64,000 nucleotides of DNA from Streptacidiphilus jeojiense (GTDB lineage: Bacteria > Actinomycetota > Actinomycetes > Streptomycetales > Streptomycetaceae): positions 124,001 through 188,000 of the forward strand of contig NZ_JOEH01000009.1 in assembly GCF_000719095.1 (NCBI RefSeq), written 5' to 3'. The notes beneath the pieces are model-generated. The model was given only the letters and a program-made list of their open reading frames with translations. It was not told where the DNA came from and did not search any database. Made by a program: the position numbers and the translations under genes. Position 1 is the first letter of the stretch, and each line of letters begins with the position of its first letter. This document shows, in pieces, positions 1 through 25,470 of this stretch.

Positions 1-2706
1 GACGCTGACGAGGCCCCCGGGATGGAGCTGCTCGCCGCGGCCGAGCGCACCGACGCCGTCGCCGCGCTGACCGCCGAGCGCGCTGCGATGCTCGCCGACT
101 GGCCGACCGTCGTGGAGCTCCCCAGCGACCTGGACCGGCCCGCGGTCCGCACCTGCGCCGGGGTCCGACTGCCCTTCACCATCACCGAGTCGGCCCGGGC
201 CGGCTGCGTGGCGCTGGCCGCATCGCTCGGCGTCAGCCGCAACGCGGTGCTCCTGGGCGCCTGGGCGCTGGTGGTGGCCCGGCGCACCGGACGGCAGCGG
301 CTGCTGGTGGGCGTCCCCACCGTCGGCCGGCACAACCGCAGTGCCATGCGGGTCGTCGGCGGTGCCACCGGCCTCGGCCCGGTGGCCTGCGAGATCCCGG
401 AGGACGGGACGGTGGCCGACTACGTCCGGAGCACCGCCCGGGCGCTGCGGGAACTGCTGCGGTACGGCCGGGTGCCGTTCGAGGACCTGGTGACCGGGCT
501 GACCCGGGGCGGCGACCGCTCCCGCAACCCGCTGGCACAGATCGCCTTCGGCGCGCACAGCGAGCTGGTGCCGACCGTGCTGCCGGCCGGCGGGGTGGAC
601 TTCGAGATCTGCGTCGGGCACACCGGCGGCACCGCCTACGACGCCATGCTGCACGTGCTCGGCTGGGACGCCCAGCCGGCGCTGGAACTCGAGTACGCGA
701 CCTCGGTGCTGACCGCGCAGGAGGCGCTCGACCTGGCCGGCTCCTTCGAGCAGGCGCTGCTCGAACTGGCCGCCGCCCCGGACCGCCCGCTGGCCGAGGT
801 CGGCACGGTCTCCCCGGCCCAGCGGCGCCGGCTGGACGCCCTGGAGCGCGGCCCCGAGGCGACCGTCGACGCGGGGCTGTGGCAGCTGATCGAGGAGGTG
901 GCCGTACGCACCCCGGACGCCCCCGCGGTCCGCGCCGACGAAGCCCCGGAGTCGACCCTGACCTACCGTCAACTGCTGGATGCTGCAGCCGAACTGTCCG
1001 CGCGTCTGGCCGCCGCCGGGGTCGCCGAGGGCGACCGGGTGGGCCTGGCGCTGCGCCGCTCGGTCGACGAGATCGTCGCGATCGCGGCGGTCCTGCGGAT
1101 CGGCGCCGCCTACGTGGGCATCGACGCCGGCAACCCGCCCGCGGCCAACACCGCGGTCCTGGACGGCGCGCAGGCACGGGTGGTGCTCGGCGACCCGGAC
1201 CGGCTGGAGGCGCTGGGCGCCGCCGGGACCGGGCGCACCCTGCTGACCGTGGCACCGCCCGCCGCCACCGCGCCGGTCGGTGTCGCGCTGGTCGGCACCG
1301 CGCCGGTCGGCACCGTGCCGCCGCCCGCGCCCGCCGACCCCGACCGGATCGCCTACCTGGCCTTCACCTCCGGCACCACCGGCGCGCCGAAGGGCGCGAT
1401 GATCCCCTGCCGGGGCGTGGTCCGGCTGGCCCACCGGCCGCAGTTCCTGCGGCCCGGGGCGACCGACCGCTTCCTGCGCCTGGCCCCGCTGGCCTTCGAC
1501 GCCTCGACGCTGGAGATCTTCGCCCCGCTGCTGGCCGGCGGCACGATCGAGGTCTTCACCGGCCGGCACGTCACCGCCTCGGCGCTGGCCCGGGTGCTGG
1601 AGCAGCGCGAGGTCACCGGCCTCTGGCTCTCCGCGGGCCTGTTCCGCCTGGTCGCCGACTTCCGCCCGGCCGCCTTCCGCTCGGTGCTGCAGCTGCTCAC
1701 CGGCGGGGACGTGGTGCCGCCGGCGCAGGTGGCCCAGGTCCTGCGGACCTGCCCCGGACTGCGCGTCAGCAACGGCTACGGGCCCACCGAGAACACCACC
1801 TTCACCACCGTCCACCATGTCGACGAACCGGCCGCCGCCACCGCGTCCGGGCTGCCGATCGGCCGCCCGATCCAGGGCACCGGCGTGCTGGTGCTCGACC
1901 GGTCCGGCCGACCGGTACCGCCCGGCGGCGTCGGCGAGCTGTACACCTACGGCGCCGGCCTGGCGGCGGGTTACGCCGGGGCGCCGGAGGAGACGGCCCG
2001 GGTCTTCGGGGAGTTCGGCGCCGCGGCCGGCGGCCGGCGGCTCTACCGCACCGGCGACCTGGTCCGCTGGGACGCCGAGGGCAACCTGCGCTTCCTCGGC
2101 CGCAGCGACCGCCAGGTCAAGGTCCGCGGCTTCCGGGTCGAGCCGGAGCAGGTGACCGCGGTGCTGCGGAGCCATCCCGAGGTCCGCGACGCCGCGGTGG
2201 CGGTGGTACCGCTCGGCAACGGCGACCACCAGCTGCTGGCCGCGGTCGTCGGCACCGCGCCCGGGCTCACGTCCGCGCTGCGCTCCTTCGCCGCCGGGCA
2301 GTTGCCCGGCCACGCCGTCCCCGGACTGTGGGCGCAGGTGGACGAGTTCCCGGTCACCGCCAACGGGAAGCTCGACCTGGACCGGCTGCGGCGCCTGGCC
2401 GCGGGCGAGGAGGCCGTCGCCCCCGCACCCGTCGCGGTCCCGGCGGCACCCGTCCGGTCCGAGGGCGACCGGCTGGTCTCGGTGGTCACCGAGGCCTGGG
2501 CCGAGGTCCTCGGCCACCGCGACTTCCGTCCCGACGACTGGTTCTTCGACGTCGGCGGCGACTCCCTGCTGCTGATCCGGGTCCACTCGATCCTCAAGGA
2601 GGCCCTGCCCGAGTACGAGGTCACCGTCGGCGACCTGTACGCCTGCAGCGCCATCGAGGACCTCGTTGCCAAACTCCGGGGCGCGCGGCAGCCCGCCGCC
2701 GCCTGA
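1..2706 (+). CDS. NRPS protein half-C-A-T, Val-type adenylation (5' end possibly outside window)
   Basis: This is a stand-alone amino acid-activating NRPS protein that opens the halogenation cassette. Counting from the ATG at base 22, residues 1-270 match only the C-terminal half of a condensation domain (ELPSDLDRP, then VGVPTVGR) and no HHxxxDG is present. The A domain (about 285-790) has FTSGTTGAPKG near 441, NGYGPTENTTF near 583 and NGKLD near 781. The T domain carries DVGGDSLL near 843. The specificity residues read DALWLGGTF plus the A10 lysine, which I recall as very close to the valine code of surfactin synthetase (DAFWIGGTFK). The frame is open from base 1, so the gene may start upstream. 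ATG 22 has only a weak GAGG at 10-13. The half-C-A protein at 7372-9498 has the same layout, which favours a start near 22. The halogenase follows after 103 bases. Confidence 0.85.
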   Translation, partial: DADEAPGMELLAAAERTDAVAALTAERAAMLADWPTVVELPSDLDRPAVRTCAGVRLPFTITESARAGCVALAASLGVSRNAVLLGAWALVVARRTGRQRLLVGVPTVGRHNRSAMRVVGGATGLGPVACEIPEDGTVADYVRSTARALRELLRYGRVPFEDLVTGLTRGGDRSRNPLAQIAFGAHSELVPTVLPAGGVDFEICVGHTGGTAYDAMLHVLGWDAQPALELEYATSVLTAQEALDLAGSFEQALLELAAAPDRPLAEVGTVSPAQRRRLDALERGPEATVDAGLWQLIEEVAVRTPDAPAVRADEAPESTLTYRQLLDAAAELSARLAAAGVAEGDRVGLALRRSVDEIVAIAAVLRIGAAYVGIDAGNPPAANTAVLDGAQARVVLGDPDRLEALGAAGTGRTLLTVAPPAATAPVGVALVGTAPVGTVPPPAPADPDRIAYLAFTSGTTGAPKGAMIPCRGVVRLAHRPQFLRPGATDRFLRLAPLAFDASTLEIFAPLLAGGTIEVFTGRHVTASALARVLEQREVTGLWLSAGLFRLVADFRPAAFRSVLQLLTGGDVVPPAQVAQVLRTCPGLRVSNGYGPTENTTFTTVHHVDEPAAATASGLPIGRPIQGTGVLVLDRSGRPVPPGGVGELYTYGAGLAAGYAGAPEETARVFGEFGAAAGGRRLYRTGDLVRWDAEGNLRFLGRSDRQVKVRGFRVEPEQVTAVLRSHPEVRDAAVAVVPLGNGDHQLLAAVVGTAPGLTSALRSFAAGQLPGHAVPGLWAQVDEFPVTANGKLDLDRLRRLAAGEEAVAPAPVAVPAAPVRSEGDRLVSVVTEAWAEVLGHRDFRPDDWFFDVGGDSLLLIRVHSILKEALPEYEVTVGDLYACSAIEDLVAKLRGARQPAAA

Positions 2707-2725
2707 GGCCGTCCGCGGCCGTCCA

Positions 2726-2786
2726 CACCGACCAGCCCGCCCGAACCGAACGAACCGAACCGACCGAACCAACCGAACCGACCGCA
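2726..2786. repeat. CCGAA/CCGAC short tandem repeat between genes
   Basis: The gap between the first NRPS gene and the halogenase is mostly repeats of a 4-5 base unit (cgaac, cgaaccgaccgaac and variants). It codes for nothing evident. The halogenase ribosome site (GAGAGGAAGAG) lies immediately after it. Confidence 0.7.
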
Positions 2787-2809
2787 TGATCCGAATGAGA
2801 GGAAGAGCT

Positions 2810-3757
2810 ATGTCCCAGAACGACTTCTCGCTCACCCCCGAGCAGGTGGAGCAGTTCGAGCGCGACGGCTACATCGGCCCGTTCGACCTGTACGACCCGG
2901 CCGAGATGGAGCAGAACCTGCGGGCGCTGCGCCCCAAGCTGATCAGCACCAAGAAGTCGATCTACAGCGACGAGAAGCAGGCGTCGGCCATCTCCAACTA
3001 CGACCGCCACTTCGACATCGACTTCCTGGCCGGCCACGTCACCCGTCCGGAGATCGTCGACCGGGTCGCCTCCATCCTCGGACCCGACACCCTGTGCTGG
3101 CGCTCGGAGTTCCTGGCCAAGTACCCCGGCGACGAGGGCACCGACTGGCACCAGGCCGAGGACTTCTCCAGCCTCACCGACAACGCCACCCCGCAGATCC
3201 AGTGGCCGGCCGACTCGGACCGCCGCGGCACCGTCACCGTATGGACCGCCTTCACCGAGGCCAGCGTCGAGACCGGGGCGCTGCAGTTCATTCCCGGCAC
3301 CCACAAGGAGATGAACTACGACGAGACCAAGGGCCTGACCTACGACGCCGACATCATCAACAACCTGGAGAAGCAGGGCACCAACCGCGGCTTCTTCGGC
3401 TACGACTACCGCCAGCTGCAGAAGAACCCCGACTGGGCCCCGGACGAGTCCAAGGCCATCTCCGCGGTCATGAAGCAGGGGCAGTTCATCATCTTCTGGT
3501 CCACGCTCATGCACGCCTCGCACCCCAACACCAGCGAGGACCAGGCCCGCCTGGGCTACTCGGTGCGCTACCTGCCCACCGCCGCCCGCGTCTACCCGGG
3601 GCTCACCGAGCTGAAGGAGTTCGGCTCCACGGTCAGCCTCGCCCGCTACGGGGCGATCCTCACCTCCGGCGAGGACACCTACCAGCACAACACGTACGTA
3701 CAGGAGACCGTGAACGGCTACGAGTTCCCGGTCCGTGACATTCGGAGGTCCGCATGA
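2810..3757 (+). CDS. SyrB2/CytC3-type non-heme Fe(II)/2-oxoglutarate halogenase
   Basis: The 315-residue protein is a PhyH-fold oxygenase whose facial triad is altered to the halogenase form. WHQAEDF at 113-119 gives His114-x-Ala116, where hydroxylases carry Asp or Glu, so chloride can occupy the third iron site. The second ligand is His235 in LMHASHPN, and Arg253 (SVRYLP) is the likely 2-oxoglutarate anchor. These positions are almost the same as those I recall for SyrB2 (His116, Ala118, His235, Arg254). Known relatives chlorinate unactivated methyl groups of Thr, aminobutyrate, Val, Leu or Ile held on a carrier protein. The start is ATG 2810 behind AGAGGAAG. The stop overlaps the start of the next gene, a free carrier protein, as ATGA. 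That coupling and the Val-type A domain upstream make a carrier-bound valine-like residue the likely substrate. Confidence 0.92.
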   Translation: MSQNDFSLTPEQVEQFERDGYIGPFDLYDPAEMEQNLRALRPKLISTKKSIYSDEKQASAISNYDRHFDIDFLAGHVTRPEIVDRVASILGPDTLCWRSEFLAKYPGDEGTDWHQAEDFSSLTDNATPQIQWPADSDRRGTVTVWTAFTEASVETGALQFIPGTHKEMNYDETKGLTYDADIINNLEKQGTNRGFFGYDYRQLQKNPDWAPDESKAISAVMKQGQFIIFWSTLMHASHPNTSEDQARLGYSVRYLPTAARVYPGLTELKEFGSTVSLARYGAILTSGEDTYQHNTYVQETVNGYEFPVRDIRRSA

Positions 3758-4026
3758 CCGTGCAGACGACGGGGAGCCGTCCGGCGACCCAACAGGAGAC
3801 CGAGGCCTGGGTGGCCGAGAGCTGGCGCGCCCTGGGGCTTGCGGTGGAGGGGCCGCAGACCGACTTCTTCGCGGTGGGCGGCACCTCGCTCGCGGCGGCG
3901 CGGTTCGTCGCCGGCGCCGAGGAACTGTTCGGCGAGGACGTGCTCCCGCCGGAGGACTTCTTCGAGGACAGCTCGGTGTCGGCCGTGGCCGCACTGCTCC
4001 TCCGCAACACCGGCGACGGGTCCTGA
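3754..4026 (+). CDS. Free-standing peptidyl carrier protein (halogenase partner)
   Basis: A 90-residue carrier protein. FFAVGGTSL gives Ser45 as the phosphopantetheine attachment site. The start overlaps the halogenase stop (ATGA), so the two are translationally coupled. In the coronamic acid and kutzneride pathways a free carrier of this kind holds the amino acid during chlorination. The same role is inferred here, with the residue coming from the T domain of the first protein or loaded directly by its A domain. About 166 bases without a recognisable gene separate it from the thioesterase. Confidence 0.85.
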   Translation: MTVQTTGSRPATQQETEAWVAESWRALGLAVEGPQTDFFAVGGTSLAAARFVAGAEELFGEDVLPPEDFFEDSSVSAVAALLLRNTGDGS

Positions 4027-4192
4027 CGGACCATCACCGCACTGACGCAGCAACCGCACCGCCGCGACACCCGCACCGATGTGACGTGGGGCCCCGACGA
4101 GCACGGCACCGCCCGTGCCGTCGCGGCCCCCGCGCCACCCCTCGGCCCAACCCCTACTCCGTCCGCCCCGCCCCGCAGAGAGGCAGCGACCT

Positions 4193-4963
4193 GTGACCGA
4201 CGCTCCCGTCCCGCAGTGGCTCTTCCCGCTGCGCAAGCAGTCCCCGGACGCCGCCGCACCGCAGGCGCGGCTCCTCGTCCTCCCCTACGCCGCAGCCGGC
4301 GCCGCCTCGCTGCGGCCGCTGGTGGCGGCCCTGCCCGCGGAGATCCAGGTACTGGGCGTCTCGCTGCCCGGCCGGGAGCGCCGCTTCTCGGAGCCGCCGG
4401 TGACCGGCCACACCGAGATCGTCACCGCCGTCACCCGCGAACTCGCCGCCCTGCCGCCCCTGCCCACCTGGCTGTTCGGCCACAGCATGGGCGCCAGCCT
4501 GGCGCTCGCCTGTGCCCTGGCCGCCCCCGAGCTGTGCCACGGCGTCGCGGTCAGCGCCCGCAAACCCACCGGCGTCGCCCTGGAGTCGCTGCGCGGCCTG
4601 GACGACGAGCAGATCGTCGGCTTCTTCGGCGCCGTCGGCAACACGGCACCCAAGCTGCTGGCCGACCCGTTCTGGCGGGCCCGGTTGATCGACCTCTTCC
4701 GCAGCGACACCCGGCTCGACGAGGAGGTGTCGGCCGCCATCGAGGGAGCCCCGCTGGACCTGCCGGTGCTCGCCCTCGGCGGTGCCGACGACCCGTACGT
4801 CCCCGCCGCCGAGCTCTACGAGTGGGAGCGGCGCACCAGCGGCGGCTGCGAGGTGCAGGTACTGCCCGGCGCGCACTTCTACCTGCTCGACCCGGGCAAC
4901 CGCGTCGCGGTGCAGCAGGCACTGGACGGGGCGCTGCGCCGGACCGCCGTCCCCGTCGGCTGA
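4193..4963 (+). CDS. Type II thioesterase (alpha/beta hydrolase)
   Basis: A 256-residue thioesterase of the GrsT/RifR class. The nucleophile elbow is FGHSMGA (Ser98), the acid lies in GGADDPY (199-200) and the histidine is in GAHFYL (His228). The early LPYAAAGAASL segment is typical of type II enzymes that act on carrier-bound acyl groups. The start chosen is GTG 4193 behind AGAGAGGCAGC. Upstream in-frame starts would add proline-rich sequence with no homology. In this cassette it could release a finished chlorinated residue, clear mis-loaded carriers, or hand the residue on. The last role is filled in coronamic acid synthesis by CmaE, which has a Cys nucleophile. The Ser here favours hydrolysis. 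Confidence 0.85.
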   Translation: MTDAPVPQWLFPLRKQSPDAAAPQARLLVLPYAAAGAASLRPLVAALPAEIQVLGVSLPGRERRFSEPPVTGHTEIVTAVTRELAALPPLPTWLFGHSMGASLALACALAAPELCHGVAVSARKPTGVALESLRGLDDEQIVGFFGAVGNTAPKLLADPFWRARLIDLFRSDTRLDEEVSAAIEGAPLDLPVLALGGADDPYVPAAELYEWERRTSGGCEVQVLPGAHFYLLDPGNRVAVQQALDGALRRTAVPVG

Positions 4964-5021
4964 GCAACCCGAGAACCGCCAGGAAACGAGCCCGGAGACG
5001 CTCCGGGGAAGGAGGCAGAAC

Positions 5022-6047
5022 GTGGTCGCAGCCCACCCGTCCGCTGACGGGGAAGCCCTGCTCGACTGGAACGAGAGTCCGATCGGCCCGCCACCGCTGG
5101 CCGTCAAGCGGGTCGTCGACGCCGCCGAGCGTCTGCACCGCTACCCCCGGGGTCTGCTGGAGGAGGTCACCGCACTGGCTGCCGCCCACCACGGCGTCAG
5201 CACCGACCAGGTGCTGCTGATGGCCGGCGTGGACGAGGCCATCGACATGACCCTCTCGCTGGCCGACCGGGCCTGGGGACTGAAGCCGGGATTCGACGGC
5301 TACCCGGACCGGGCGGCCGCCAACGACAAGCCGTTCCACCCGATCCCGCTCGGCCCGGACTGGCAGCCCCGGCCCGGCGTCCCGGCGGGACTCGGCGCCG
5401 GCGACATCGTCTACCTGGCCCAGCCCGGCAACCCCACCGGCAACCTGCTCCCCGCCGCCTGGATCGACGGCCTGCGCGCCGTCGCCGGACATGTCTTCGT
5501 CGACGAGACCTACCAGGAGTTCTCCGCGCAGCCCGGAATCCTCTCCCGCACCGGCGGCCCGGTGCCCGGGGTCCTGGTCTACCGCAGCTTCTCCAAGGCG
5601 GCCGGCCTGGCCGGGATCCGCCTCGGCTGCCTGGTCGCCGACGCCGCCACCATCGCCCGGCTGCGGCCGCTGCGCCGGTTCATGCCGATCGACGCGGTCA
5701 GCCTGCACGCGGCGGCCGGCCTGCTGGAGGAACCCGAGTTCATGACCCGGCTGGCCGAGTACGTCCGCGAGGCCCGTGCCGAACTGTGCACCACGCTGCG
5801 CGCCAGCGGCCTGTTCGAGGAGGTCCGCGAGTCGGAGACCAACTTCGTGCTGGTCCGCCCCGAGGCGGCCGTGCGCGAGGCACTCGCCACGGTCCTCGCC
5901 GAGGACCGGGTCCGGGTCAAGGACTGCGACGGCAACGGGCTGCCCGGCTGGCTCCGGATCAGCATCGGAAGCCGGGAGGACCACCAGCGGCTGGACCGCA
6001 GCCTGTGCCGCGTCGCCTGGACCCGCATCCTCCCCAGGGCGGCCTGA
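5022..6047 (+). CDS. HisC-like fold-type I PLP aminotransferase
   Basis: A 341-residue class I/II aminotransferase resembling histidinol-phosphate aminotransferase. The N-terminus has WNESPIGPP and RYPRG. PGNPTG (Asn137), VDETY (Asp161) and SFSKAAGLAGIRLG (Lys192 for the PLP Schiff base, Arg200) are all present. The start is GTG 5022, eight bases after GGAGG. It is unlikely to be the housekeeping HisC, because no other his gene is nearby and a methyltransferase follows 85 bases later. The family interconverts amino acids and 2-oxo acids. Paired with the MppJ-like methyltransferase, the inferred role is to supply or reclaim the 2-oxo acid that is methylated at its beta carbon. The actual substrate cannot be read from the sequence. 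Confidence 0.8.
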   Translation: MVAAHPSADGEALLDWNESPIGPPPLAVKRVVDAAERLHRYPRGLLEEVTALAAAHHGVSTDQVLLMAGVDEAIDMTLSLADRAWGLKPGFDGYPDRAAANDKPFHPIPLGPDWQPRPGVPAGLGAGDIVYLAQPGNPTGNLLPAAWIDGLRAVAGHVFVDETYQEFSAQPGILSRTGGPVPGVLVYRSFSKAAGLAGIRLGCLVADAATIARLRPLRRFMPIDAVSLHAAAGLLEEPEFMTRLAEYVREARAELCTTLRASGLFEEVRESETNFVLVRPEAAVREALATVLAEDRVRVKDCDGNGLPGWLRISIGSREDHQRLDRSLCRVAWTRILPRAA

Positions 6048-6132
6048 GCCCGGGACTCCCCGAATTCTCACCCCCGTACATCCACACCGCATTCACCCCG
6101 CACCGAATTCACCCCAGAGAGGCGAACCCATC

Positions 6133-7179
6133 ATGACCATCCTGACCGACGACTTCGAGCGCCGTCTGATCGACAACACCCAGCCGGTCCGTCAGTTCTT
6201 CCTGGCCCAGGCCCTGCACCACGCCATGCACGTGGGCCTGTTCGACGCGCTGAAGAAGGAGCCCGGAGCCACCGCGGAGACGCTGGCCGAGCAGCTCGGC
6301 CTGGACGCCTACCGCACCGGCGGGTTCCTCCGCTACCTGCGCAACGAGGGCTACGCCGTACTGGAGGAGGGCGGCTGGTCCATCAGCGGCAAGGCGCTGG
6401 AGGTGCTCCCCTTCGCCCCCTGGTACGAGATGATGGTCGGCGGCTACGCGCCCTCCATGGACCAGCTCGGCGACATCCTCGCGGACGGCACCCGCTTCGC
6501 CACCCGCAACACCACCAAGGTGGGCGAGGGCAGCTGCGGTATCGGCGCCTACGACGCCCTGCCGCTGGTCGAGCAGCTGCTGGACCCGGCCATGGCCAAC
6601 CGCCCGGAGACCGTGGTGGACCTCGGCTGCGGTGACGGCAGCTTCCTGATGGACCTGCTGGTGGCCCAGCCGGACCTGCGCGGCCTCGGCGTCGAGCCCA
6701 ACCAGGGCTCGGTCGAGCTCGGCGAGCGCCGCCGGGCCGAACTCGGCCTGGAGGGCCGGTTCGACGTGGTCCAGGGCGGCGCCGCCGACGCGCTGACGCT
6801 GGACCTGCCGGAGAACGGCCGGGGCATCTGCTTCATGACCGCCTTCGTGCTCCAGGAGGTGCTGCAGCAGGAGGGCCCGGAGTTCGTCGAGAACCTGCTG
6901 GCGCAGACCTTCGAGCGCTACCCCGAGGCCCGCTGGCTGGTCGTCGAGATGGACCACAAGCCGCTCTCGCCGGTGATGGGCAGCCACGGCCTGGCGAAGA
7001 CCTTCTACAACCCCTACTTCCTGATCCACCACATCACCGAGCAGCGCCTGGAGACGCGCACCTGGTGGGACGAGCTGTTCGAGCGCCTGGGCCTGACCGT
7101 CGAGGCCTCCGCCAACCCGGACCCGCGCGCCGACTCCACCGGCCTGCAGTTCGGCGTCCTGCTCTCCAAGAAGTCCTGA
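6133..7179 (+). CDS. SAM-dependent methyltransferase, MppJ/SgvM-like
   Basis: The 348-residue enzyme has an N-terminal helical dimerisation/winged-helix region (about 15-100) and a Rossmann methyltransferase domain with VVDLGCGDGSF at 161-171. Near the C-terminus, EMDHKP (Asp274, His275) and FLIHHITEQR (His299, His300) resemble the metal-binding region I recall from MppJ, the iron-containing phenylpyruvate beta-C-methyltransferase, and from SgvM, which methylates the 2-oxo acid of leucine. An O- or ring C-methyltransferase of the same broad family remains possible. The start is ATG 6133 after AGAGAGGCG. The upstream extension of the frame is non-homologous shadow sequence. With the adjacent aminotransferase it would give a beta-methyl amino acid. 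A3 of NRPS1 has a Phe-like code, so beta-methylphenylalanine is one candidate product. Confidence 0.75.
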   Translation: MTILTDDFERRLIDNTQPVRQFFLAQALHHAMHVGLFDALKKEPGATAETLAEQLGLDAYRTGGFLRYLRNEGYAVLEEGGWSISGKALEVLPFAPWYEMMVGGYAPSMDQLGDILADGTRFATRNTTKVGEGSCGIGAYDALPLVEQLLDPAMANRPETVVDLGCGDGSFLMDLLVAQPDLRGLGVEPNQGSVELGERRRAELGLEGRFDVVQGGAADALTLDLPENGRGICFMTAFVLQEVLQQEGPEFVENLLAQTFERYPEARWLVVEMDHKPLSPVMGSHGLAKTFYNPYFLIHHITEQRLETRTWWDELFERLGLTVEASANPDPRADSTGLQFGVLLSKKS

Positions 7180-7200
7180 CCCGGGGTCAGCCCGTCGACC

Positions 7201-7245
7201 CCGAAGGGGCGGTCCGCTCGCACTGCGAGCCGGCCGCCCCTTCGG
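7201..7245 (+). terminator. Hairpin downstream of methyltransferase
   Basis: A perfect 12-base stem (CCGAAGGGGCGG at 7201-7212 pairs with 7234-7245), with a second small stem in the loop. It lies 21 bases past the methyltransferase stop and probably ends the plus-strand operon. Confidence 0.7.
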
Positions 7246-7263
7246 CGTTCGAAGACAGAACGG

Positions 7264-7311
7264 GGGGCAGAGAGAACAGGCTGCAGAGAGAACGGGCGGC
7301 AGAGAGAAACG
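7264..7311. repeat. Three copies of GCAGAGAGAAC
   Basis: Three imperfect direct repeats with a period of about 17 bases lie between the two hairpins of the convergent terminator region. No function is evident. Confidence 0.6.
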
Positions 7312-7353
7312 GGAGGGCCCGGTACCGCTGATCGCGGTACCGGGCCCTCCCGT
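7309..7353. terminator. Bidirectional terminator between convergent cassettes
   Basis: A perfect 20-base inverted repeat (7309-7328 with 7334-7353) with a five-base loop TGATC. It sits between the plus-strand halogenase operon and the end of the minus-strand A-domain gene, so it can stop transcription from both sides. Confidence 0.85.
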
Positions 7354-7371
7354 TGGTGGTGCGGCTCAGCG

Positions 7372-9498
7372 TCAGCGCGCCGGTCGGGCCGAGGCGGCCA
7401 GGGCCTTGCGGTCCACCTTCCCGTTGCGGGTGAGCGGGAGCTCGTCCACCACGGTCCACAGCGCCGGCACCATGTAGGAGGGCAGCTGCTGCTCCAGCGC
7501 CTGCCGCAGCCCGACCGGTGCGGGTGCGCCGCCGGCCGCCGGGACGACCGCCGCGACCAGGCGCTTGGTGGCGCTGTCGGCACCGATCGCGAAGACCAAC
7601 GCGTCCTGCACACCCGGCAGTCGGGCGATCACGGCGGCGATCGCGGCCGGCTCGACCCGGTACCCGCGCAGTTTCACCTGGTCGTCGGCCCGGCCCAGGA
7701 AGCGCAGCCGGCCGAGGCCGTCGTAGCGGACCAGGTCCCCGGTCCGGTACAGCCGCTCCGCGGTGAGGTCGGTGGAGAAGCAGCCGAAGCGCCGGGCCGT
7801 CTCGTCCTCGTCGCCGAGGTACCCGGTGGCCAGGCCGGCACCGGAGGTGTACAGCTCGCCGACGGCCCCGGGGGGCAGCAGCCGTCCCCGGCCGTCGAGG
7901 ACATGGACCCGGGTGCCGGGGATCGGCGAGCCGATGGGCAGCGGGCCGTCCACGTCCTCCGGGCGGGCCACCGAGTGGGTGGTGGTGAAGGTGGTGTTCT
8001 CGGTGGGTCCGTAGCCGTTGGTGACGACCAGTCCGGGGTGGCGCTCCAGCAGCCGGGCCACGTGCTCGTGCGGGACCACGTCGCCGCCGGTCAGCACCTG
8101 CCGCAGGCCGTGCAGCGAGTCCGGGGCGAACTCGGCGAGCAGCCGGAAGAGTCCGGCGGTGAACCAGGCGACGGTGACGCCGCGCTCGACCAGGAACTCG
8201 CCCAGCTCGGTCGGCGACGGCAGCGGTTCGGTGTAGACCTCCAGGGCCGCGCCGGTCAGCAGCGCGCCCCACAGCTCCAGGGTGGACGCGTCGAAGGCCA
8301 GCGGGGAGAGCCGGAGCACCCGCTCGCCGGGCCCCAGCCGGGCGTAGTCCGCGCCGTGCACCAGCCGGACCACACCGAGGTGCGGCACGCAGACACCCTT
8401 GGGCTCGCCGGTGGAGCCGGAGGTGAAGGCCACATAGGCCAGTCGTTCGCCGGCCCCGCCCGGCAGCAGCGTGATGGAACCGGGGTCGGGGTCCGACTCA
8501 TCGTTCCAGGAGGGGTTCCAGACCGGCACCGAGCGGACCCCGGCCGGCGGCGCGGTGCCGTCCTCCGGGCTGTGCAGCACGGCCGCAGGGCGGCACTTGG
8601 CGACGATCCGGGCCAGGTGCGCCGGCGGCGAGCCGAGGTCCACGCCGACATAGGCGGCGCCGGCCTGGACCGTGCCCAGCACGGCCACGATCTCGGCGGC
8701 CGAACGGGGCAGGCCGATCAGCACCGTGTCGCCGGGAGCGACGCCCGCCTCGACCAGCAGCCGGGCCTGTTTCCCTGCCGCTGCCACAAGTTGGCGGTAC
8801 GTCAGTTCGACATCACCGTCCCGGACCGCGACCGCGTCCGGGAACCGCCGGGCGGTCCGGTGGAACAGCTCCTCCAGCGAGGCCGTCGGGAAGTCGCGGT
8901 CGGTCCCGTTGATCCGCCGGAGCAGCGCGCGCCGCTCCGGCGCGATGCAGCGGACGTCCTCCACCGGGCCGGAGGCCGCCGCCAGTTCGGCGACCGCCGC
9001 CAGCAGGTCGGCGCTGAACGCCGCCAGTTCCGCCGGGGTCCACACACCGGCCAGGCAGCCGGTCGAACCCGCCCAGCCGTCCCCCGGCCGGTCCGCACTC
9101 CAGTCGGCGCGCAGCACGACTTCCACGCCCTCGCCGAGTACGGCGTCCGGGCCGAAGCCCGCCTGGACCGGCCCGGACACCGCCGTGCTCCCGTGCAGCT
9201 GCTGCTCCACGGCCCTGATCAGCTCGTCCGTGCTCGACCCGTCGTCAACCTCGACCACCGCCGTCCGGTCCGCGCAGCGGACCGGCACGACAGCCGTGCC
9301 GGTCCAGCGGGCCAGCGTCAGCGCGTACGCCGCCAGCAGCAGGGCGTCCGGACCGGTGCCGAGCTTGGCGCAGCGGGTCAGGACCTCCGACCGCAGCCGC
9401 GGGTCCGGGGCCGGCAACGCCCGCAGGGCCGGGCCTCCCGAGGAGGTCCGGCCCTGAAGGTCGCTGGGGAAGTCCATACGGTCTTCCTCCTCGCTCAT
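7372..9498 (-). CDS. NRPS protein half-C-A, Val-type adenylation (no T domain)
   Basis: A 708-residue stand-alone adenylation protein. The first 190 residues match only the C-terminal lobe of a condensation domain and lack HHxxxDG, as in the protein at the left edge. The A domain (about 195-705) has FTSGSTGEPKG near 354, NGYGPTENTTF near 491 and NGKVDRKAL near 689. The code reads DALWLGGTF, identical to the first protein and close to the valine code I recall. It has no T domain. Its carrier is the free T encoded just upstream, whose TGA overlaps this ATG as ATGA. The A, T, P450 and thioesterase set resembles NikP1/NikQ or NovH/NovI systems, which hydroxylate a carrier-bound amino acid. Confidence 0.88.
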   Translation of the reverse strand: MSEEEDRMDFPSDLQGRTSSGGPALRALPAPDPRLRSEVLTRCAKLGTGPDALLLAAYALTLARWTGTAVVPVRCADRTAVVEVDDGSSTDELIRAVEQQLHGSTAVSGPVQAGFGPDAVLGEGVEVVLRADWSADRPGDGWAGSTGCLAGVWTPAELAAFSADLLAAVAELAAASGPVEDVRCIAPERRALLRRINGTDRDFPTASLEELFHRTARRFPDAVAVRDGDVELTYRQLVAAAGKQARLLVEAGVAPGDTVLIGLPRSAAEIVAVLGTVQAGAAYVGVDLGSPPAHLARIVAKCRPAAVLHSPEDGTAPPAGVRSVPVWNPSWNDESDPDPGSITLLPGGAGERLAYVAFTSGSTGEPKGVCVPHLGVVRLVHGADYARLGPGERVLRLSPLAFDASTLELWGALLTGAALEVYTEPLPSPTELGEFLVERGVTVAWFTAGLFRLLAEFAPDSLHGLRQVLTGGDVVPHEHVARLLERHPGLVVTNGYGPTENTTFTTTHSVARPEDVDGPLPIGSPIPGTRVHVLDGRGRLLPPGAVGELYTSGAGLATGYLGDEDETARRFGCFSTDLTAERLYRTGDLVRYDGLGRLRFLGRADDQVKLRGYRVEPAAIAAVIARLPGVQDALVFAIGADSATKRLVAAVVPAAGGAPAPVGLRQALEQQLPSYMVPALWTVVDELPLTRNGKVDRKALAASARPAR

Positions 9499-9758
9499 CG
9501 CGCCACCACGTCCCCTCCGGCGAGCAGCTCGGCCTGGCCCCGCACCGTGCCGGCGCGCAGTACGTCCATGGTGCGCACCGGCTGCCCGAAGGCCTGCCGG
9601 ATCCGCTCCACCAGGGCCACCAGCAGCAGCGAGTCGCCGCCGGCGTCGAAGAAGTTGGTGTCCTCGGGGACCTCGTCCACCTCGAGGACCTCCTGCCACA
9701 GCGCGCGGACCAGGGTGATCCGGTCGGCGTCGTGGGCGGTGAGTACGGGCTGGGTCAT
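9495..9758 (-). CDS. Free-standing peptidyl carrier protein (P450 partner)
   Basis: An 87-residue carrier protein with FFDAGGDSLLL (Ser43). It has a strong ribosome site (GGAGGTTCGACC then ATG). It lies between the P450 gene and the A-domain gene, overlapping the latter by four bases. It should be loaded by that A domain and then present the aminoacyl group to the P450. Its GGDSL motif differs from the GGTSL of the halogenase-side carrier. Confidence 0.88.
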   Translation of the reverse strand: MTQPVLTAHDADRITLVRALWQEVLEVDEVPEDTNFFDAGGDSLLLVALVERIRQAFGQPVRTMDVLRAGTVRGQAELLAGGDVVAR

Positions 9759-9775
9759 GGTCGAACCTCCTGGTT

Positions 9776-9843
9776 GTGGCGCACTGGTTGGAGCGGGTGT
9801 CTGGCACGGGTGTCTGGCACGGGTGTCCGGCGCGGACCGACGC
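9776..9843. repeat. GGGTGTCTGGCAC tandem repeat between genes
   Basis: Most of the gap between the P450 stop and the carrier protein start is three imperfect copies of a 13-base unit (ggtgtctggcacg). No gene or operator is recognisable. Confidence 0.55.
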
Positions 9844-11103
9844 CTACCGACGGTGGCGTGCGGTGATCGGGACGTGCTTGTAGCCGGAGGCGAAGTTGGA
9901 GATCAGTCGCTCGGGCCGGCCGGCCGCGCTGAAGTCCTGGTAGCGGGAGAGGAGTTCCTCGAAGAGCAGGCCCAGCGACGCGCGGGCGACGCTGTGTCCG
10001 ACGCAGTAGTGCGGGCCGATGCCGAAGGACAGGTGCTTGTTGGGACGGCGGCGGATGTCGAAGCGCTCCGGATCCGCGAAGACCCGCTCGTCGCGGTTGA
10101 CCGCGCCGAGCCAGACCACCACGGCGTCGCCGGCCGCGACCGGGGTGCCGTGCAGCACCGTGTCCCGGGTGGCGTAGCGCATCACGTGGTTGACCGGCGA
10201 GGCCCAGCGCAGCGCCTCGGCGTAGCCGGACTCGTTCAGTTCCGGGTGCGCCGCCCAGTCGGTCAGCACGTCGCTGTCCACGAACTCGGCCATCACGAAG
10301 GTGGGGGCGTGCGGGGTGGTGACATTGGCTCCGAGCAGCAGGCTGTAGCAGTTGGAGACGACCTCGCCCGGCGACATCAGCCGGCCCTCGAACCGGGTCG
10401 ACATCAACGCGCTGAGCAGGTCCTGGCCGAGGTTCTCGGAGCGGTGCCGGATCAGGTCCTGGAAGTAGCCGAACAGCTCCAGGTGCGCGGTGCTGAGGGT
10501 GGCGGCCCGGCCGCCCGGCTCCTGGAACTCCGGGTCGTCGGCGGCGATGCACATGGTGGTGACCCGGGTCAGCCACTCCCAGTCGGTGCGGGGCAGGGCC
10601 ATCATCGTGCCGGTGACCCACATCGGCATCGCCATCATCGCGGTGGCGAAGTCGAAGACCCCGCCGTCGCCCAGCGGTTCCAGCAGCTCGACCACCAGCG
10701 AACGGATCTGCTCGCGCTGCCGCCCCACCGCCTTGCTGGTGAGGGCGCGCTTCAGCCGGGCCTGCCGGGCGGTGTGCAGCGGCGGGTCGGTGACGGCCAG
10801 CTGCTGGCCGCCGGCCGGGTCGTCGGTGCCGAGCAGGTCGAGCAGGGTGCCGCGCTCGGAGGTGTAGGTGTCGGTGTCCCGCAGCACCTCGTCGGCCTCG
10901 CGGTAGTGGACCACGGACCAGAAGCCGCGGTCCGCGTCCACCTGCTGCCAGTGCAGGTGGTCCAGGGCCCGCAGTTCGCGCCAGAGTCGCGGGGCGTCCC
11001 CGTGGCTGTAGAGGCGTGGATCCACCAGGTCGGGCCCGGCCGGACGGAAGGGGCAGCCGGAGGCGGGCCCTCCGGTCACGCTCGGCACCTCGGTCACGGT
11101 CAT
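9844..11103 (-). CDS. Cytochrome P450, probable carrier-bound amino acid hydroxylase
   Basis: A soluble bacterial class P450 of 419 residues. The heme loop is SFGIGPHYCVGH with the thiolate Cys367, ExxR is EALR (296-299), and the I-helix reads LLLGANVTTP (about 256-264). The Asn-Val-Thr-Thr pattern departs from the usual A-G-x-D/E-T and recalls P450s acting on carrier-bound amino acids. It is transcribed between a thioesterase gene (3 bases upstream) and the free carrier and A-domain genes. That context points to beta-hydroxylation of a Val-like aminoacyl-S-carrier, as NikQ does for His and NovI for Tyr. Hydroxylation of the final peptide is the alternative. Confidence 0.85.
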   Translation of the reverse strand: MTVTEVPSVTGGPASGCPFRPAGPDLVDPRLYSHGDAPRLWRELRALDHLHWQQVDADRGFWSVVHYREADEVLRDTDTYTSERGTLLDLLGTDDPAGGQQLAVTDPPLHTARQARLKRALTSKAVGRQREQIRSLVVELLEPLGDGGVFDFATAMMAMPMWVTGTMMALPRTDWEWLTRVTTMCIAADDPEFQEPGGRAATLSTAHLELFGYFQDLIRHRSENLGQDLLSALMSTRFEGRLMSPGEVVSNCYSLLLGANVTTPHAPTFVMAEFVDSDVLTDWAAHPELNESGYAEALRWASPVNHVMRYATRDTVLHGTPVAAGDAVVVWLGAVNRDERVFADPERFDIRRRPNKHLSFGIGPHYCVGHSVARASLGLLFEELLSRYQDFSAAGRPERLISNFASGYKHVPITARHRR

Positions 11104-11106
11104 GGG

Positions 11107-11910
11107 TCAGCGGCTCCTTTCGAGCTCGTCGACGACGGTCCGCAGCAGGGCCTCGGCGTGTTCCGTCTCGGTGAGGTACATGTGTCCGCCGTCCAGCTCG
11201 ACGCTGCGGAAGCCGGCGGTGGTCTCGACGGACCATTCGGCCGCCTCCGCCGCGCTGACCAGCGCGTCGTCCCGGCCGCGCAGCGAGGTGACGGGTACGT
11301 CGAGCAGCTCGGCGTGGGCCGAGCGGTAGTCCTCGTGCATGGCGTTGTCGGCGCGCAGGAACGGCATCATCACCTGGAGCAGTTCCGGGTGGTCCATGGC
11401 CGGGTGGCGGTAGCCGGCCACCCGGCGCAGGCCCTCCAGGAAGGCCTCGTCGTCCAGGTGGCTGACCCGCTCCACCTGCCGGTCGCGCGGTCCGGGTGAG
11501 CCGCTGACCAGCAGCCGGGACACCGTGGTGCCCCGGGCGGCCAGGCGCCGGGTCAGCTCGAAGGCCAGCTCGGCGCCCAGGCTGTGGCCGAACAGGGCGA
11601 CCCGCTCGGCGGCTTCGCCCAGTGCGGCCAGCTGGTCGAGGACCCGCGGGAGGGCCTCGTCCATGGCCTGGTCGACATCGGTGTACGGGGTCTCGAAGTA
11701 GCGCTCCTCGCGGCCCGGGAGCTGGACCGGCAGCAGGGTGAGCCCCTCCGGGGCCAGCGAGCGCCACTTGCGGAAGAACCCGGCGCCGGCCCCGGCGAAG
11801 GGCAGGCAGATCAGTACGGTGGGAGCGGTTGTCGCGGGGACGGGGACGGTTGTCGCGGTGACGGTGGTCGTGGTGGGAGCAGGGGTCGTGGCGGGGACGG
11901 TGGTGGTCAT
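11107..11910 (-). CDS. Type II thioesterase with Thr/Pro-rich N-terminus
   Basis: A 267-residue type II thioesterase. LICLPFAGAGAGFF marks the N-terminal core, FGHSLGAE holds Ser110, RGRDDAL the acid (214-215) and GGHMYLTE the histidine (243). The first 30 residues are a low-complexity Thr/Pro/Val stretch absent from typical relatives, so a downstream start or a repeat expansion is possible. It is the second free thioesterase in the cluster and belongs to the A/T/P450 cassette, like NikP2 in nikkomycin synthesis. It may release the hydroxylated residue or proofread carriers. As no synthetase here has its own thioesterase, peptide release is also conceivable. Confidence 0.85.
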   Translation of the reverse strand: MTTTVPATTPAPTTTTVTATTVPVPATTAPTVLICLPFAGAGAGFFRKWRSLAPEGLTLLPVQLPGREERYFETPYTDVDQAMDEALPRVLDQLAALGEAAERVALFGHSLGAELAFELTRRLAARGTTVSRLLVSGSPGPRDRQVERVSHLDDEAFLEGLRRVAGYRHPAMDHPELLQVMMPFLRADNAMHEDYRSAHAELLDVPVTSLRGRDDALVSAAEAAEWSVETTAGFRSVELDGGHMYLTETEHAEALLRTVVDELERSR

Positions 11911-11922
11911 CGGATCTTCCTC

Positions 11923-12132
11923 TCAGGCCGCACTGCCGTGGCCGACCGCGAGCGCGTCGGTGCTCCAGCGCTCCAGCACCTGCTGCGGGTCGCCGGTGCT
12001 CAGCTCCTGCAGCAGCGCGTCGACCCGGTCGGTCCCGCGCACGCTGTTGACGGTGCGGCAGCGGTAGGTGATCAGCACGACGCTCTCGTCGATCCGGGAG
12101 TAGCCGTAGTACGGGGGCGTGAACCTGTCCAT
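11923..12132 (-). CDS. Small protein of unknown function in P450 operon
   Basis: A 69-residue protein that I do not recognise. It is soluble, with an aromatic N-terminus (FTPPYYGYSR), and has no transmembrane segment and no cysteine pair. It is not an MbtH protein: the SLWP and Trp pattern is missing, and a true MbtH gene lies at 13826. A ribosome site (AGGAGAGAGAGG) precedes the ATG and the thioesterase starts 12 bases after the stop, so it is probably translated with the operon. It could be a small helper of the P450 or carrier protein. That is guesswork from position only. Confidence 0.55.
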   Translation of the reverse strand: MDRFTPPYYGYSRIDESVVLITYRCRTVNSVRGTDRVDALLQELSTGDPQQVLERWSTDALAVGHGSAA

Positions 12133-12150: not shown

Positions 12151-12220
12151 CCTGGTCGGACGGGCTGGTCGTAAGGGCTGGTCGTAAGGGCTGGTCGGAC
12201 GGGCTGGTCAGACTGGCTGG
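12151..12220. repeat. 13-base tandem repeat, about five copies
   Basis: Five imperfect copies of GGGCTGGTCGTAA/GGGCTGGTCGGAC fill the gap between the antiporter and the 69-residue gene and run into the antiporter C-terminal codons. Confidence 0.75.
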
Positions 12221-13825: not shown

Positions 13826-14041
13826 TCAGGCGGCCGCGGCGCTCGCCGCTATCAGGCTCTTCGGCCGCATGTCGGTCCAGGCCTCCTCGATGTGGTTGAG
13901 GCAGGTCTCCCGGTCCTCCGGACCGCGGACCACGGTCCAGCCGGCCGGGACGGCGGCGAAGCTGGGCCACAGCGAGTACTGTCCTTCGTCGTTGACCAGG
14001 GCGAGGTAGGACTGGTCCTGGTTCTCGAACGGGTTGGCCAT
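13826..14041 (-). CDS. MbtH-like protein
   Basis: A 71-residue MbtH-family protein. It starts MANPFEN and contains [15 protein letters not shown] followed by [17 protein letters not shown], the hallmark motif with its conserved tryptophans. MbtH proteins bind adenylation domains and are often needed for their folding or activity. It lies directly downstream of NRPS1 in the same transcriptional direction, and AAGGAG precedes the ATG. It is the only MbtH gene in the window, so it probably serves the A domains of NRPS1 and NRPS2 and perhaps the two stand-alone A proteins. Its C-terminus ends in an alanine run. Confidence 0.95.
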
Positions 14042-23100: not shown

Positions 23101-24287
23101 ACGGTGGCGCCGAAGACCACGTCCTGGCGTCGAGTGAGGGTGCCGAGCAGCATCGCCCAGGCGCCCTGGAGCAGGGTGTTCATGGTCAGGCCCTGGGCCC
23201 GGACCGAGGCGGTGACCCGCGCCGTGGTCTCCTCGTCCAGGGAGCCCACCACCCGGGCCGGCAGCGCGGACAGCGTGGACCCGGCGCCGGGGGCGACCAG
23301 GGTCGGCTCCTCCAGCCCGGCCAGCGCCTCGCCCCAGGCGGCCAGGCTCGCCTCCCGGTCCTGCGCCGCCAGCCAGCTCAGATAGGTGCGGAACGGCACC
23401 ACCTCCGGCAGCGGCACCGTGGCGTCGCCGTCACCATCCCTGTCGGCATCCCCGTCGCCATCCCCGTCCGCCGCGTAGAGGCGGGACACCTCGTCCAGGG
23501 CACGGGCCATCGACCAGCCGTCCCAGATGATGTGATGGCTGGTCAGCACCAGCAGATGCTGGTCGGAGGCCACCCGCAGCAGCAGCGCCCGCAGCAGCGG
23601 CGGACGGGCCGGGTCGAAGCGCTCCAGACGGTCCACCCGCAGCAGCTCGGCGATCCGCTCCCGGCGCGGCTGCTCCGCCAGGCCGCTCAGGTCCTGCTCC
23701 TGCCAGGGCAGTTCCACCGAAGCCCGGATCACCTGGACCGGCTGGCCGGACCGGCGCATCACGAAGCCGGCGCGCAGCCCGGCGTGCCGCTGCAGCAGGG
23801 CCTCGAACGCCGCCCGGAGCCGTCCGGAGTCGACCGCGCCCGACAGCACCAGCGGCGCCTGCACCAGGTAGGGGTCGGCCTGCCGCTCGTCGTAGACGGA
23901 GTGGAAGAGCAGGCCCTCCTGCAACGGGGTGACCGGCCAGACGTCCTCCACCGGGCCGTGACCGGCGGTGAGTTCGGCGTACTCGGCCTCGTCCAGCCGT
24001 ACCAGCGGACCGTCCGCGGCGACGAAGGCGTCCTCCGCGACCACGTCCTGTGCCGCCTCGGCCAGCGCGGCCGGGGTCTCGCCCTCGAAGACGTGCCGGT
24101 ACTCCAGGGCGAGGCCGGCCGCGTGGGCCTTGGCCACCAGTTCGATCGAGGTGATCGAGTCGCCGCCCAGCTCGAAGAAGCTGGAGTCGGCGTCGATCTC
24201 GGTGACGTCGAGTTCGAGGACCGCTGCGAACAGCTCACGCAGCAGAGCCTCGCGTGCGGTCCGGTCCTGCTGGGTGGGCGCGTTCAT
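14175..24287 (-). CDS. NRPS1: T-C-A-T-C-A-T-C-A-T
   Basis: A 3370-residue synthetase adding three residues. It begins with an A-less T (GGDSI near residue 40). The modules are C1 (HHIIWDGWS near 251), A1 (near 740) and T2 (near 1112); C2 (near 1333), A2 (near 1816) and T3 (near 2216); and C3 (near 2433), A3 (near 2911) and T4 (near 3286). My code readings are A1 DAMFAGVVI (aliphatic, near Ile/Leu-type codes), A2 DAASSGFVD (no match known to me) and A3 DAFTVAAIW (Phe-like, but Trp where Cys is usual). The tail [12 protein letters not shown] looks like a COM donor that would meet the short N-terminus of NRPS2. T1 must be loaded in trans. Loop expansions occur, such as repeated AQTGP near 2860 and [11 protein letters not shown] near 280. 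It lies 133 bases upstream of the MbtH gene. Confidence 0.95.
15667..15724. repeat. In-frame repeat encoding AQTG(P/L) units in NRPS1 A3
   Basis: About four copies of a 15-base unit encode [10 protein letters not shown] in the loop between A-domain core motifs A2 and A3. The frame is kept. It looks like a recent repeat expansion on a surface loop. Confidence 0.7.
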
Positions 24288-24426: not shown

Positions 24427-25470
24427 CTAGAGCCGCACCCGCTGGAGCGGGTCGGCGCCGTGCGCGCCCAGGTCCCGGCTGACGATGATCTTGCGGAGCC
24501 ACCGGTCGGTGCCGTCGTAGTGGGCGGTGAAGGAGTCGCGGGCGTGGGCCACGCTCCGGTTGTCGAGGATCAGCAGCGTGCCGGGGGCCGCCACCAGCGG
24601 TCGCCGCACCCGGTCCAGCTCGGACCGGAGCCGGGACAGCGCCCGCTCGGCCGCCGGGTCGTCCCCGAGGCAGCGCATGAACGGGACGTCCAGCCGGACG
24701 TGCGGGTTGGCCGGGTCGTCGAAGAGCACCGGGACCGACTTCGGCCGGTCGCGCATCGCGATCGCCCGCTCCAGGGCGGGGTCGCCCGGGGCCCGCAGTT
24801 CCAACTGCCGGATGTGCTCGTCGTCCGGGACGATGTGGAACCGGGGCTCCGACAGCACCTCCCGGTCGTACTCGCTCAGTTCGGCGTCGCGGACGGCGGC
24901 GACGAAGGTCGGCACCACGTCGATGTTGCGGATCCCGAACAGCAGCAGGTAGTCGGCGGAGTCGGGCCGGAAGGCGTCGTCGGTGTGGAAGGAGAGGAAG
25001 CCCTCGCTGCCGTGGCCGCTCTCGCGGCGCTCGTCGCCGCGGATCGGGAAGATGTCCTGGATCATCCGGCCGTACTGCAGCGTCGCCCAGGCGAAGGGGT
25101 CGCCGAGCGCGGAGCCGCACATGGCCAGGTAGATATCCGACTGCAGGGTGGCGGAGCACCCCTCGGGTCGCTCCCAGTGCATCGGGGTCGGACCGACCTC
25201 GGCGTCGTCGATCGGGAAGCCGTGCACCTGGCAGACGGTGGCGGCCGGGTCGTCGCGGAACTGCTCCAGGAAGCGGAGCAGCCGGGGCGGCAGCAGTTCC
25301 TGGGCCCGGTCGAACTTCCGGTAGAAGTCCGGCTCGATCGGCGAGATCCCGGTCTCGGTGAACTCCTGCACCCGGTCCAGGATGTCGTCTATCTCGGCCT
25401 CGTTCAGCATGTACGAGGGAACTCGTGAACCATTCGTGCACGGAGTGGAAACTTGACTGTATGTGAGCAT
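24427..25470 (-). CDS. Fe(II)/2-oxoglutarate oxygenase, VioC/AsnO-like (clavaminate synthase family)
   Basis: A 347-residue TauD/clavaminate synthase-like oxygenase. FLSFHTDDAFRP gives His162-x-Asp164, NRSVAHARDSF gives His309, and TDRWLRKI (Arg323 or Arg326) should bind 2-oxoglutarate. The layout matches amino acid beta-hydroxylases such as VioC (Arg), AsnO (Asn), KtzO/KtzP (carrier-bound Glu) and MppO (enduracididine). Those usually have His-x-Glu where this protein has His-x-Asp. The second acid is retained, so it should hydroxylate rather than halogenate. ATG 25470 follows GGAGATTCTC. It probably makes a beta-hydroxy amino acid for one of the NRPS modules. A2 of NRPS1 and the A domain of NRPS2, with unrecognised codes, are candidates. 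Confidence 0.85.
   Translation of the reverse strand: MLTYSQVSTPCTNGSRVPSYMLNEAEIDDILDRVQEFTETGISPIEPDFYRKFDRAQELLPPRLLRFLEQFRDDPAATVCQVHGFPIDDAEVGPTPMHWERPEGCSATLQSDIYLAMCGSALGDPFAWATLQYGRMIQDIFPIRGDERRESGHGSEGFLSFHTDDAFRPDSADYLLLFGIRNIDVVPTFVAAVRDAELSEYDREVLSEPRFHIVPDDEHIRQLELRAPGDPALERAIAMRDRPKSVPVLFDDPANPHVRLDVPFMRCLGDDPAAERALSRLRSELDRVRRPLVAAPGTLLILDNRSVAHARDSFTAHYDGTDRWLRKIIVSRDLGAHGADPLQRVRL

Follow-up and report, generated by a model that had tools for sequence, protein, structure and literature searches.

Organization of the two gene sets

The window analyzed here is a 64,000-nucleotide stretch of the 9.16-Mb genome of Streptacidiphilus jeojiense (contig NZ_JOEH01000009.1; C9:124001-188000). 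It carries a nonribosomal peptide synthetase (NRPS) cluster in which two sets of genes, one with a halogenase and one with a cytochrome P450, each include an adenylation (A) protein, a free carrier (T) protein, and a thioesterase (TE). Parts were assigned using Pfam and NCBIfam, with the left flank of the window added. The plus-strand operon contains, in this order, P450u1, CAT1, the halogenase, T1, TE1, an aminotransferase, and a methyltransferase, while on the minus strand the set contains, going from right to left, TE2, P450b, T2, and CA2. In the following list, positions are counted from the first letter of the window, negative values lie to its left, and C denotes a condensation domain.

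-1892 to -630 (L009:18108-19370), plus strand, immediately left of the window: P450u1, in the halogenase operon
1..2706 in the window (true start 539 bases to the left), plus strand: CAT1, C-A-T module, code DALWLGGTFK, 1081 aa
2810..3757, plus strand: Fe(II)/2-oxoglutarate halogenase with an HQA motif
3754..4026, plus strand: T1, free carrier protein, GGTSL, resembling the carriers of other halogenase loci
4193..4963, plus strand: TE1, type II thioesterase, GHSMG
5022..6047, plus strand: HisC/CobD-like aminotransferase
6133..7179, plus strand: methyltransferase resembling 2-ketoarginine methyltransferase (369 bits against TIGR04543, under the cut-off of 425)
7309..7353: terminator-like hairpin of 20 pairs between the converging operons (1 found; shuffle mean, 0.2)
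7372..9498, minus strand: CA2, A domain preceded by the C-terminal half of a C domain, code DALWLGGTFK, without a carrier of its own, 708 aa
9495..9758, minus strand: T2, free carrier, GGDSL
9844..11103, minus strand: P450b, aminoacyl-carrier-type P450, I-helix GANVTT
11107..11910, minus strand: TE2, type II thioesterase, GHSLG

A previous sequence-only reading of this DNA had proposed opposed operons, one with an HQA halogenase, a free carrier, and a thioesterase, and the other with a P450, a free carrier, and a thioesterase. All of these elements were recovered (the halogenase, T1, and TE1; P450b, T2, and TE2), and the two operons converge on the hairpin. The same reading had seen a clean mirror image of a halogenase side and a P450 side; this had to be given up because P450u1 sits in the halogenase operon just beyond the window. 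Its description of both A proteins as half-C-A proteins applies to CA2: its N-terminal part corresponds to the latter half of the C domain found in full C-A-T relatives (with a weak match to the C domain of CAT1 as well; E value, 0.010), so that the HHxxxDG half is absent. It does not apply to CAT1, a whole C-A-T protein with HHVVLDG and the carrier motif GGDSL, the apparent half C domain being an artefact of the window edge.

Adenylation pocket codes of CAT1 and CA2

Codes were read by alignment to the A domain of GrsA, which itself returned the code known for it (DAWTIAAICK). CAT1 and CA2 both read DALWLGGTFK, and so do their counterparts in Streptacidiphilus pinicola and in strain PB12-B1b; the identity of the two codes, as claimed previously, is thus upheld in three species. 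We take DALWLGGTFK to be a valine code; the string was not found in the open-licence literature. In both proteins, core motifs A3, A5, A8, and A10, the four that were inspected, are intact. Among the 14 own-genome matches to CA2 (E value, ≤1e-30), this code was limited to CAT1 and CA2, and there were two further same-code pairs (DVWHLSLVDK twice and DAESIGTVVK twice), so a shared code by itself is not rare. A recent duplication of the two A domains was rejected given their 47% identity, though CAT1 is the closest own-genome match of CA2. Including the entries that come from the window itself or are near-identical to it, the code was read as DALW[L/I]GGTFK in 23 of 34 CAT1 relatives (P0241-P0274) and as DALWLGGTFK in 18 of 25 CA2 relatives (P0121-P0145).

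The same code might nonetheless stand for different amino acids, namely, 2-aminobutyrate or (allo-)isoleucine for CAT1 and valine for CA2, in which case no single residue would be split. CytC3, the closest solved halogenase, acts on 2-aminobutyrate according to one report (PMC8407142), and the CAT1 relatives of two Streptomyces strains with related halogenases read DAFFLGLAYK and DGFFLGLAYK. Because the ten-residue codes are identical across all three species, we regard this alternative as unlikely.

The halogenase and its probable Val-type partner

In halogenases of the SyrB2/CytC3 type, the Asp/Glu of the facial triad is replaced by Ala (HxA), accompanied by a distal His and an Arg for 2-oxoglutarate. 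The halogenase of the window has HQA at residue 114, a His at residue 235, and an Arg that aligns with those of CytC3 and SyrB2. It scored 401.3 bits against TIGR01762 (above the cut-off of 226.3), and its best solved relatives were CytC3 (8e-115) and SyrB2 (3e-109). It is predicted to be a carrier-dependent enzyme of this type.

Seven rows of the halogenase tree, on contigs or from strains with an intact CAT1, formed one clade (100/100), within which the five whose CAT1 reads DALW[L/I]GGTF formed an inner clade (99/96). Halogenases beside A domains with DAFFLGV[T/V]F or DFW[N/S]VGMVH, the latter presumably a Thr-type code, lay apart from the DALW[L/I]GGTF clade (5 label changes versus 14.3 in shuffles). 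If the two-cassette proposal made below is correct, this would be a lineage of halogenases paired with a Val-type A domain.

To describe halogenase surroundings, stretches were taken from 18 of the 37 other matching genomes, covering 19 of the 42 other matches. A standalone T1-like carrier frame was present in 12 of these 18 stretches, and the A domain nearest to the halogenase read DAFFLGV[T/V]F in 10, DFW[N/S]VGMVH in 6, and DIWLTGLCI in 2; one DIWLTGLCI stretch contained a second halogenase with the neighbor code DFWNVGMVH. The TE1-like proteins of halogenase loci carried Ser in 16 of 16 cases.

The P450b set and the further P450 of the halogenase operon

The A protein, free carrier, P450, and thioesterase of the minus-strand set are encoded by adjacent genes, as in standalone hydroxylation cassettes of the Nik and Ply type. 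P450b had 4l0e, which we take to be P450sky, as its best solved match (225 bits), and contains the heme Cys motif FGIGPHYCVG and the ExxR motif (EALR). Twenty-one loci had a P450b of at least 65% identity. The code of the most CA2-like A domain was DALW[L/I]GGTF in all 20 loci in which it was read (the A domain of L029 was not readable; the TF order was confirmed on the raw motif in 12), although picking the most CA2-like A domain per locus biases toward agreement. The CA2 relative of PB12-B1b (P0129) has 814 aa and carries a carrier domain, which suggests a fusion of T2 and CA2.

Many actinomycete loci (L019-L033) contain a P450b relative together with a Val-coded A domain. The TE2-P450b-T2-CA2 cassette lies beside other NRPS genes in Streptomyces sp. 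NBC_01306 (L018), with no halogenase match in the 21-kb stretch, and the two loci checked by Pfam (L022 and L023) combine P450b relatives with a polyketide synthase module and an aldo-keto reductase.

P450u1 matched 4l0e far better than did P450b (543 bits; E value, 2.7e-162), has an intact I-helix motif (GGDETS), and adjoins CAT1 in all four clusters examined (the window, S. pinicola, PB12-B1b, and the Actinospica relative [G030] described below). It probably hydroxylates a residue of the main NRPS line, and it could act on the CAT1 residue. If the latter were the case, P450u1 and the halogenase would modify the same CAT1-bound residue, and both cassettes would then yield hydroxylated residues. 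The constant position of P450u1 beside CAT1 and its best solved match, which is 4l0e by a wide margin, speak for such a double modification. P450u1 is, however, kept in Actinospica, where the CAT1 A domain is degenerate and the halogenase belongs to another lineage, and P450sky reportedly works on residues held by main-line carriers. We therefore consider double modification improbable.

Distribution of the cluster

The cluster occurs in the window genome, S. pinicola (G008), and PB12-B1b (G012) among the 14 genomes of the genus. PB12-B1b matched every one of the 20 query proteins, from the regulator to NRPS2, in the same order, and S. pinicola matched 14 of 20, from the regulator to a 69-aa protein at 11923-12132, up to the contig end; each of two contigs, of 1,165,334 and 54,243 bases, is inferred to carry both a CAT1 and a CA2 relative. 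P450b was detected in 4 of the 14 genomes (E value, 1e-90), the fourth (G007) having it in another setting, without halogenase or CAT1 in a 20-kb stretch.

At the level of the order, 38 of 391 genomes had the halogenase (E value, 1e-100), 19 had P450b (E value, 1e-130), and 3 had both (G000, G169, and G372), while the two genes shared a contig in the own genome only. S. pinicola and PB12-B1b were not among the matches of this sample. A common cassette pair was considered and set aside in view of the 3 co-occurrences. Taken as a marker of the cluster, the methyltransferase (E value, 1e-110) was found in 2 of the 391 order genomes (the own genome and G030) and in 1 of 394 class genomes (the own genome).

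Main NRPS line and neighboring genes

The remaining features of the cluster are as follows.

11923..12132, minus strand: 69-aa protein, function not assigned, conserved in PB12-B1b and S. pinicola
12208-13488: Na+/H+ exchanger-like protein, also part of the PB12-B1b (63%) and G030 (57%) clusters
13826..14041, minus strand: MbtH-like protein
24033..24287, minus strand: A-less N-terminal carrier of NRPS1 (NRPS1, 14175-24287)
24427..25410, minus strand: GntD/VioC-like 2-oxoglutarate oxygenase, scoring under the two curated cut-offs
26623..28173, minus strand: A-less C-terminal C-T of NRPS2 (NRPS2, 26623-32895; no TE domain)

NRPS1 has the domain order T-C-A-T-C-A-T-C-A-T with the codes DAMFAGVVIK, DAASSGFVDK, and DAFTVAAIWK. 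NRPS2 is C-A-T-E-C-T, the epimerization (E) domain being assigned from its motif by eye. Carriers without an A domain are thus the first T of NRPS1 and the terminal C-T of NRPS2. The A code of NRPS2 is DTWQICLVSK in the window versus DVWHFSLVDK, presumably a Ser-type code, in PB12-B1b and G030, indicating that the pocket changed in the lineage of the window.

The aminotransferase and the 2-ketoarginine-methyltransferase-like enzyme are unlikely to be concerned with valine. Together with the GntD/VioC-like oxygenase, they point to an arginine-type residue that is methylated, hydroxylated, or both, the oxygenase and the methyltransferase scoring below all curated cut-offs; part of the left operon therefore probably serves another amino acid. 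The second A domain of NRPS1 (DAASSGFVDK) may be named beside this arginine-type residue. The Na+/H+ exchanger-like protein may have a role in export or resistance. The 69-aa protein had no Pfam or NCBIfam match and is 59 to 61% identical to its counterparts in PB12-B1b and S. pinicola.

A relative with a different halogenation cassette

G030, inferred to be Actinospica robiniae, keeps NRPS1 (58%), NRPS2 (57%), P450u1, CAT1, T1, TE1, the aminotransferase, and the methyltransferase. With overlapping weaker hits removed, P450b and T2 had no match in 76 kb of this genome, CA2 matched only the A domain of the halogenase (41%), and TE2 had only a 40% match upstream; nor was G030 among the 19 order genomes with P450b. 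Its halogenase falls outside the clade of seven that goes with an intact CAT1 and adjoins an A domain of its own (DAFFLGVTFK), followed by a protein of the acyl-CoA-dehydrogenase family. Its CAT1 A domain is degenerate (QALWLGGLFG; TSGSDGVLKG; GFGSPQN; A10 absent). This part of the related cluster, with the halogenation genes and CAT1, is at L115, 6620-9354 and 13952-17167. The halogenation cassette thus appears to have been swapped, in either direction, on a conserved scaffold. Such a natural exchange would be a useful guide for the engineering of modified residues.

Proposed tailoring of one Val-type residue by two cassettes

We propose, with about even confidence, that one NRPS cluster here contains two carrier-bound precursor-tailoring cassettes drawing on one Val-type amino acid. 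CAT1 would activate this residue, and the halogenase would chlorinate it on either the CAT1 carrier or the free T1, with TE1 acting as a proofreader or releaser. CA2 would activate the same residue and load T2, on which P450b would hydroxylate it, most likely at the beta carbon, and TE2 would release or move the product. The modified residues would then pass to the main-line carriers that lack A domains. The sequence itself shows the component genes, their codes and motifs, and the conservation of the pair; valine as the substrate, the site of modification, the carrier used by the halogenase, the thioesterase roles, and a common peptide for both residues are proposed. The ties of both oxygenases to Val-coded A domains, that of the halogenase by clade and that of P450b by neighborhood, support the view that one kind of residue undergoes both chlorination and P450 oxidation. 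The split of one Val-type residue into chlorinated and hydroxylated pools, as put forward in the sequence-only reading, agrees with these ties and with the shared codes, while the clean two-sided division it implied does not survive.

Several observations weigh against this proposal. The halogenase operon holds a second P450. The code is frequent in both A families, so that its identity in CAT1 and CA2 is largely inherited rather than convergent, although an inherited code still predicts the same residue for both. In the halogenase tree, the CAT1 codes of the six P rows were assigned on a presumed shared contig and, for NPDC004561, on the strain name alone. TE1 and TE2 both have Ser in place of the Cys nucleophile that the SyrC and CmaE shuttles are said to use. 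The I-helix of P450b lacks the usual acid, which was missing in 41 of 41 relatives aligned (drawn from L017-L058, where 41 of 42 loci, all but L057, passed a blastp threshold of 1e-60; L059-L078 were not included); the acid-alcohol pair is usual in P450s and need not define the carrier-type P450 family. Finally, both A-less carriers are present in the Actinospica relative without a P450b cassette in 76 kb, and its CAT1 retains the C and T motifs in spite of the degenerate A domain.

The last two points bear on the earlier claim that the two cassettes match the two A-less positions. Both A-less carriers do exist, yet the match is weakened because the Actinospica relative keeps them without the second cassette and because CAT1, with an intact HHxxxDG in its C domain, may be an elongation module. 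If CAT1 were an ordinary module of the main line acting after the C-T of NRPS2, the halogenase would chlorinate in place and only the P450b cassette would fill an A-less position. The full C-A-T structure with HHxxxDG and the carrier Ser, the survival of C and T in Actinospica, and the lack of a TE domain in NRPS2 all favor this arrangement. It fits less well with the free carrier and thioesterase that accompany the halogenase, as in many standalone halogenase loci, or with the C domain of the full-length Actinospica CAT1, which may be of an unusual type because its Pfam match is weak (107 bits; the three C domains of NRPS1 together, 733). On balance, we find this arrangement rather unlikely.

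Returning to the two-cassette proposal, it is plausible that both modified residues enter one peptide. A more specific version can be offered only tentatively, in which two activation modules split one valine supply into chlorinated and hydroxylated residues destined for separate positions in a single peptide and the cassettes behave as interchangeable units, with Actinospica bearing a kutzneride-like A/halogenase/dehydrogenase set on the same scaffold beside a degenerate CAT1 A domain. If true, two activation modules compete for one amino acid and must route its differently modified forms to the right positions, and carrier recognition by the halogenase, P450s, and thioesterases would be testable in one system.

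Comparison with known systems

The syringomycin system has a standalone activation and carrier protein that, with a halogenase, serves a C-T position lacking an A domain in the main line (PMC8949500). SyrB1/SyrB2/SyrC and CytC3 resemble the present cluster in their standalone activation and carrier proteins, a halogenase of the same family (CytC3 and SyrB2 being the closest solved), and the A-less C-T. They differ from it in that here CAT1 includes a C domain, the nucleophile of TE1 is Ser, the code is of the Val type, and the A-less module is without a TE. The Cma (coronamic acid) and Ktz (kutzneride) sets reportedly share the composition of A-T, second free carrier, thioesterase, and halogenase. 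The Cma-type set is said to use a Cys acyl shuttle, in contrast to Ser in TE1 and TE2, and a scan of 39 proteins from the window and its left flank found no Ktz-type acyl-CoA-dehydrogenase-like partner, leaving the cluster without a visible cyclopropane-forming partner. The acyl-CoA-dehydrogenase-family protein next to the halogenase's A domain in Actinospica is reminiscent of KtzA, such a partner beside the halogenase. With P450sky/NikQ-type hydroxylases, P450b and P450u1 share 4l0e as their best solved match, P450b differing by its acid-free I-helix.

In polyoxypeptin biosynthesis, a single A domain has been suggested to supply two free carriers, each for a different modification (PMC3943440). 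PlyC/D/Q/R/S provide a partial precedent, with a free A protein, carriers, a P450, and thioesterases for building blocks; that system has one A domain and pairs N-hydroxylation with beta-hydroxylation, whereas the present one has two A domains and pairs chlorination with P450 oxidation. The previous statement that no cluster with such paired cassettes has been described was not contradicted in the open-licence literature, which also yielded no paper on this cluster, none on chlorovaline in a nonribosomal peptide and, in a search narrowed by further terms, none on 3-hydroxyvaline. We conclude that the cluster is a new combination of known cassettes, one carried by 3 of the 14 genomes in its genus.

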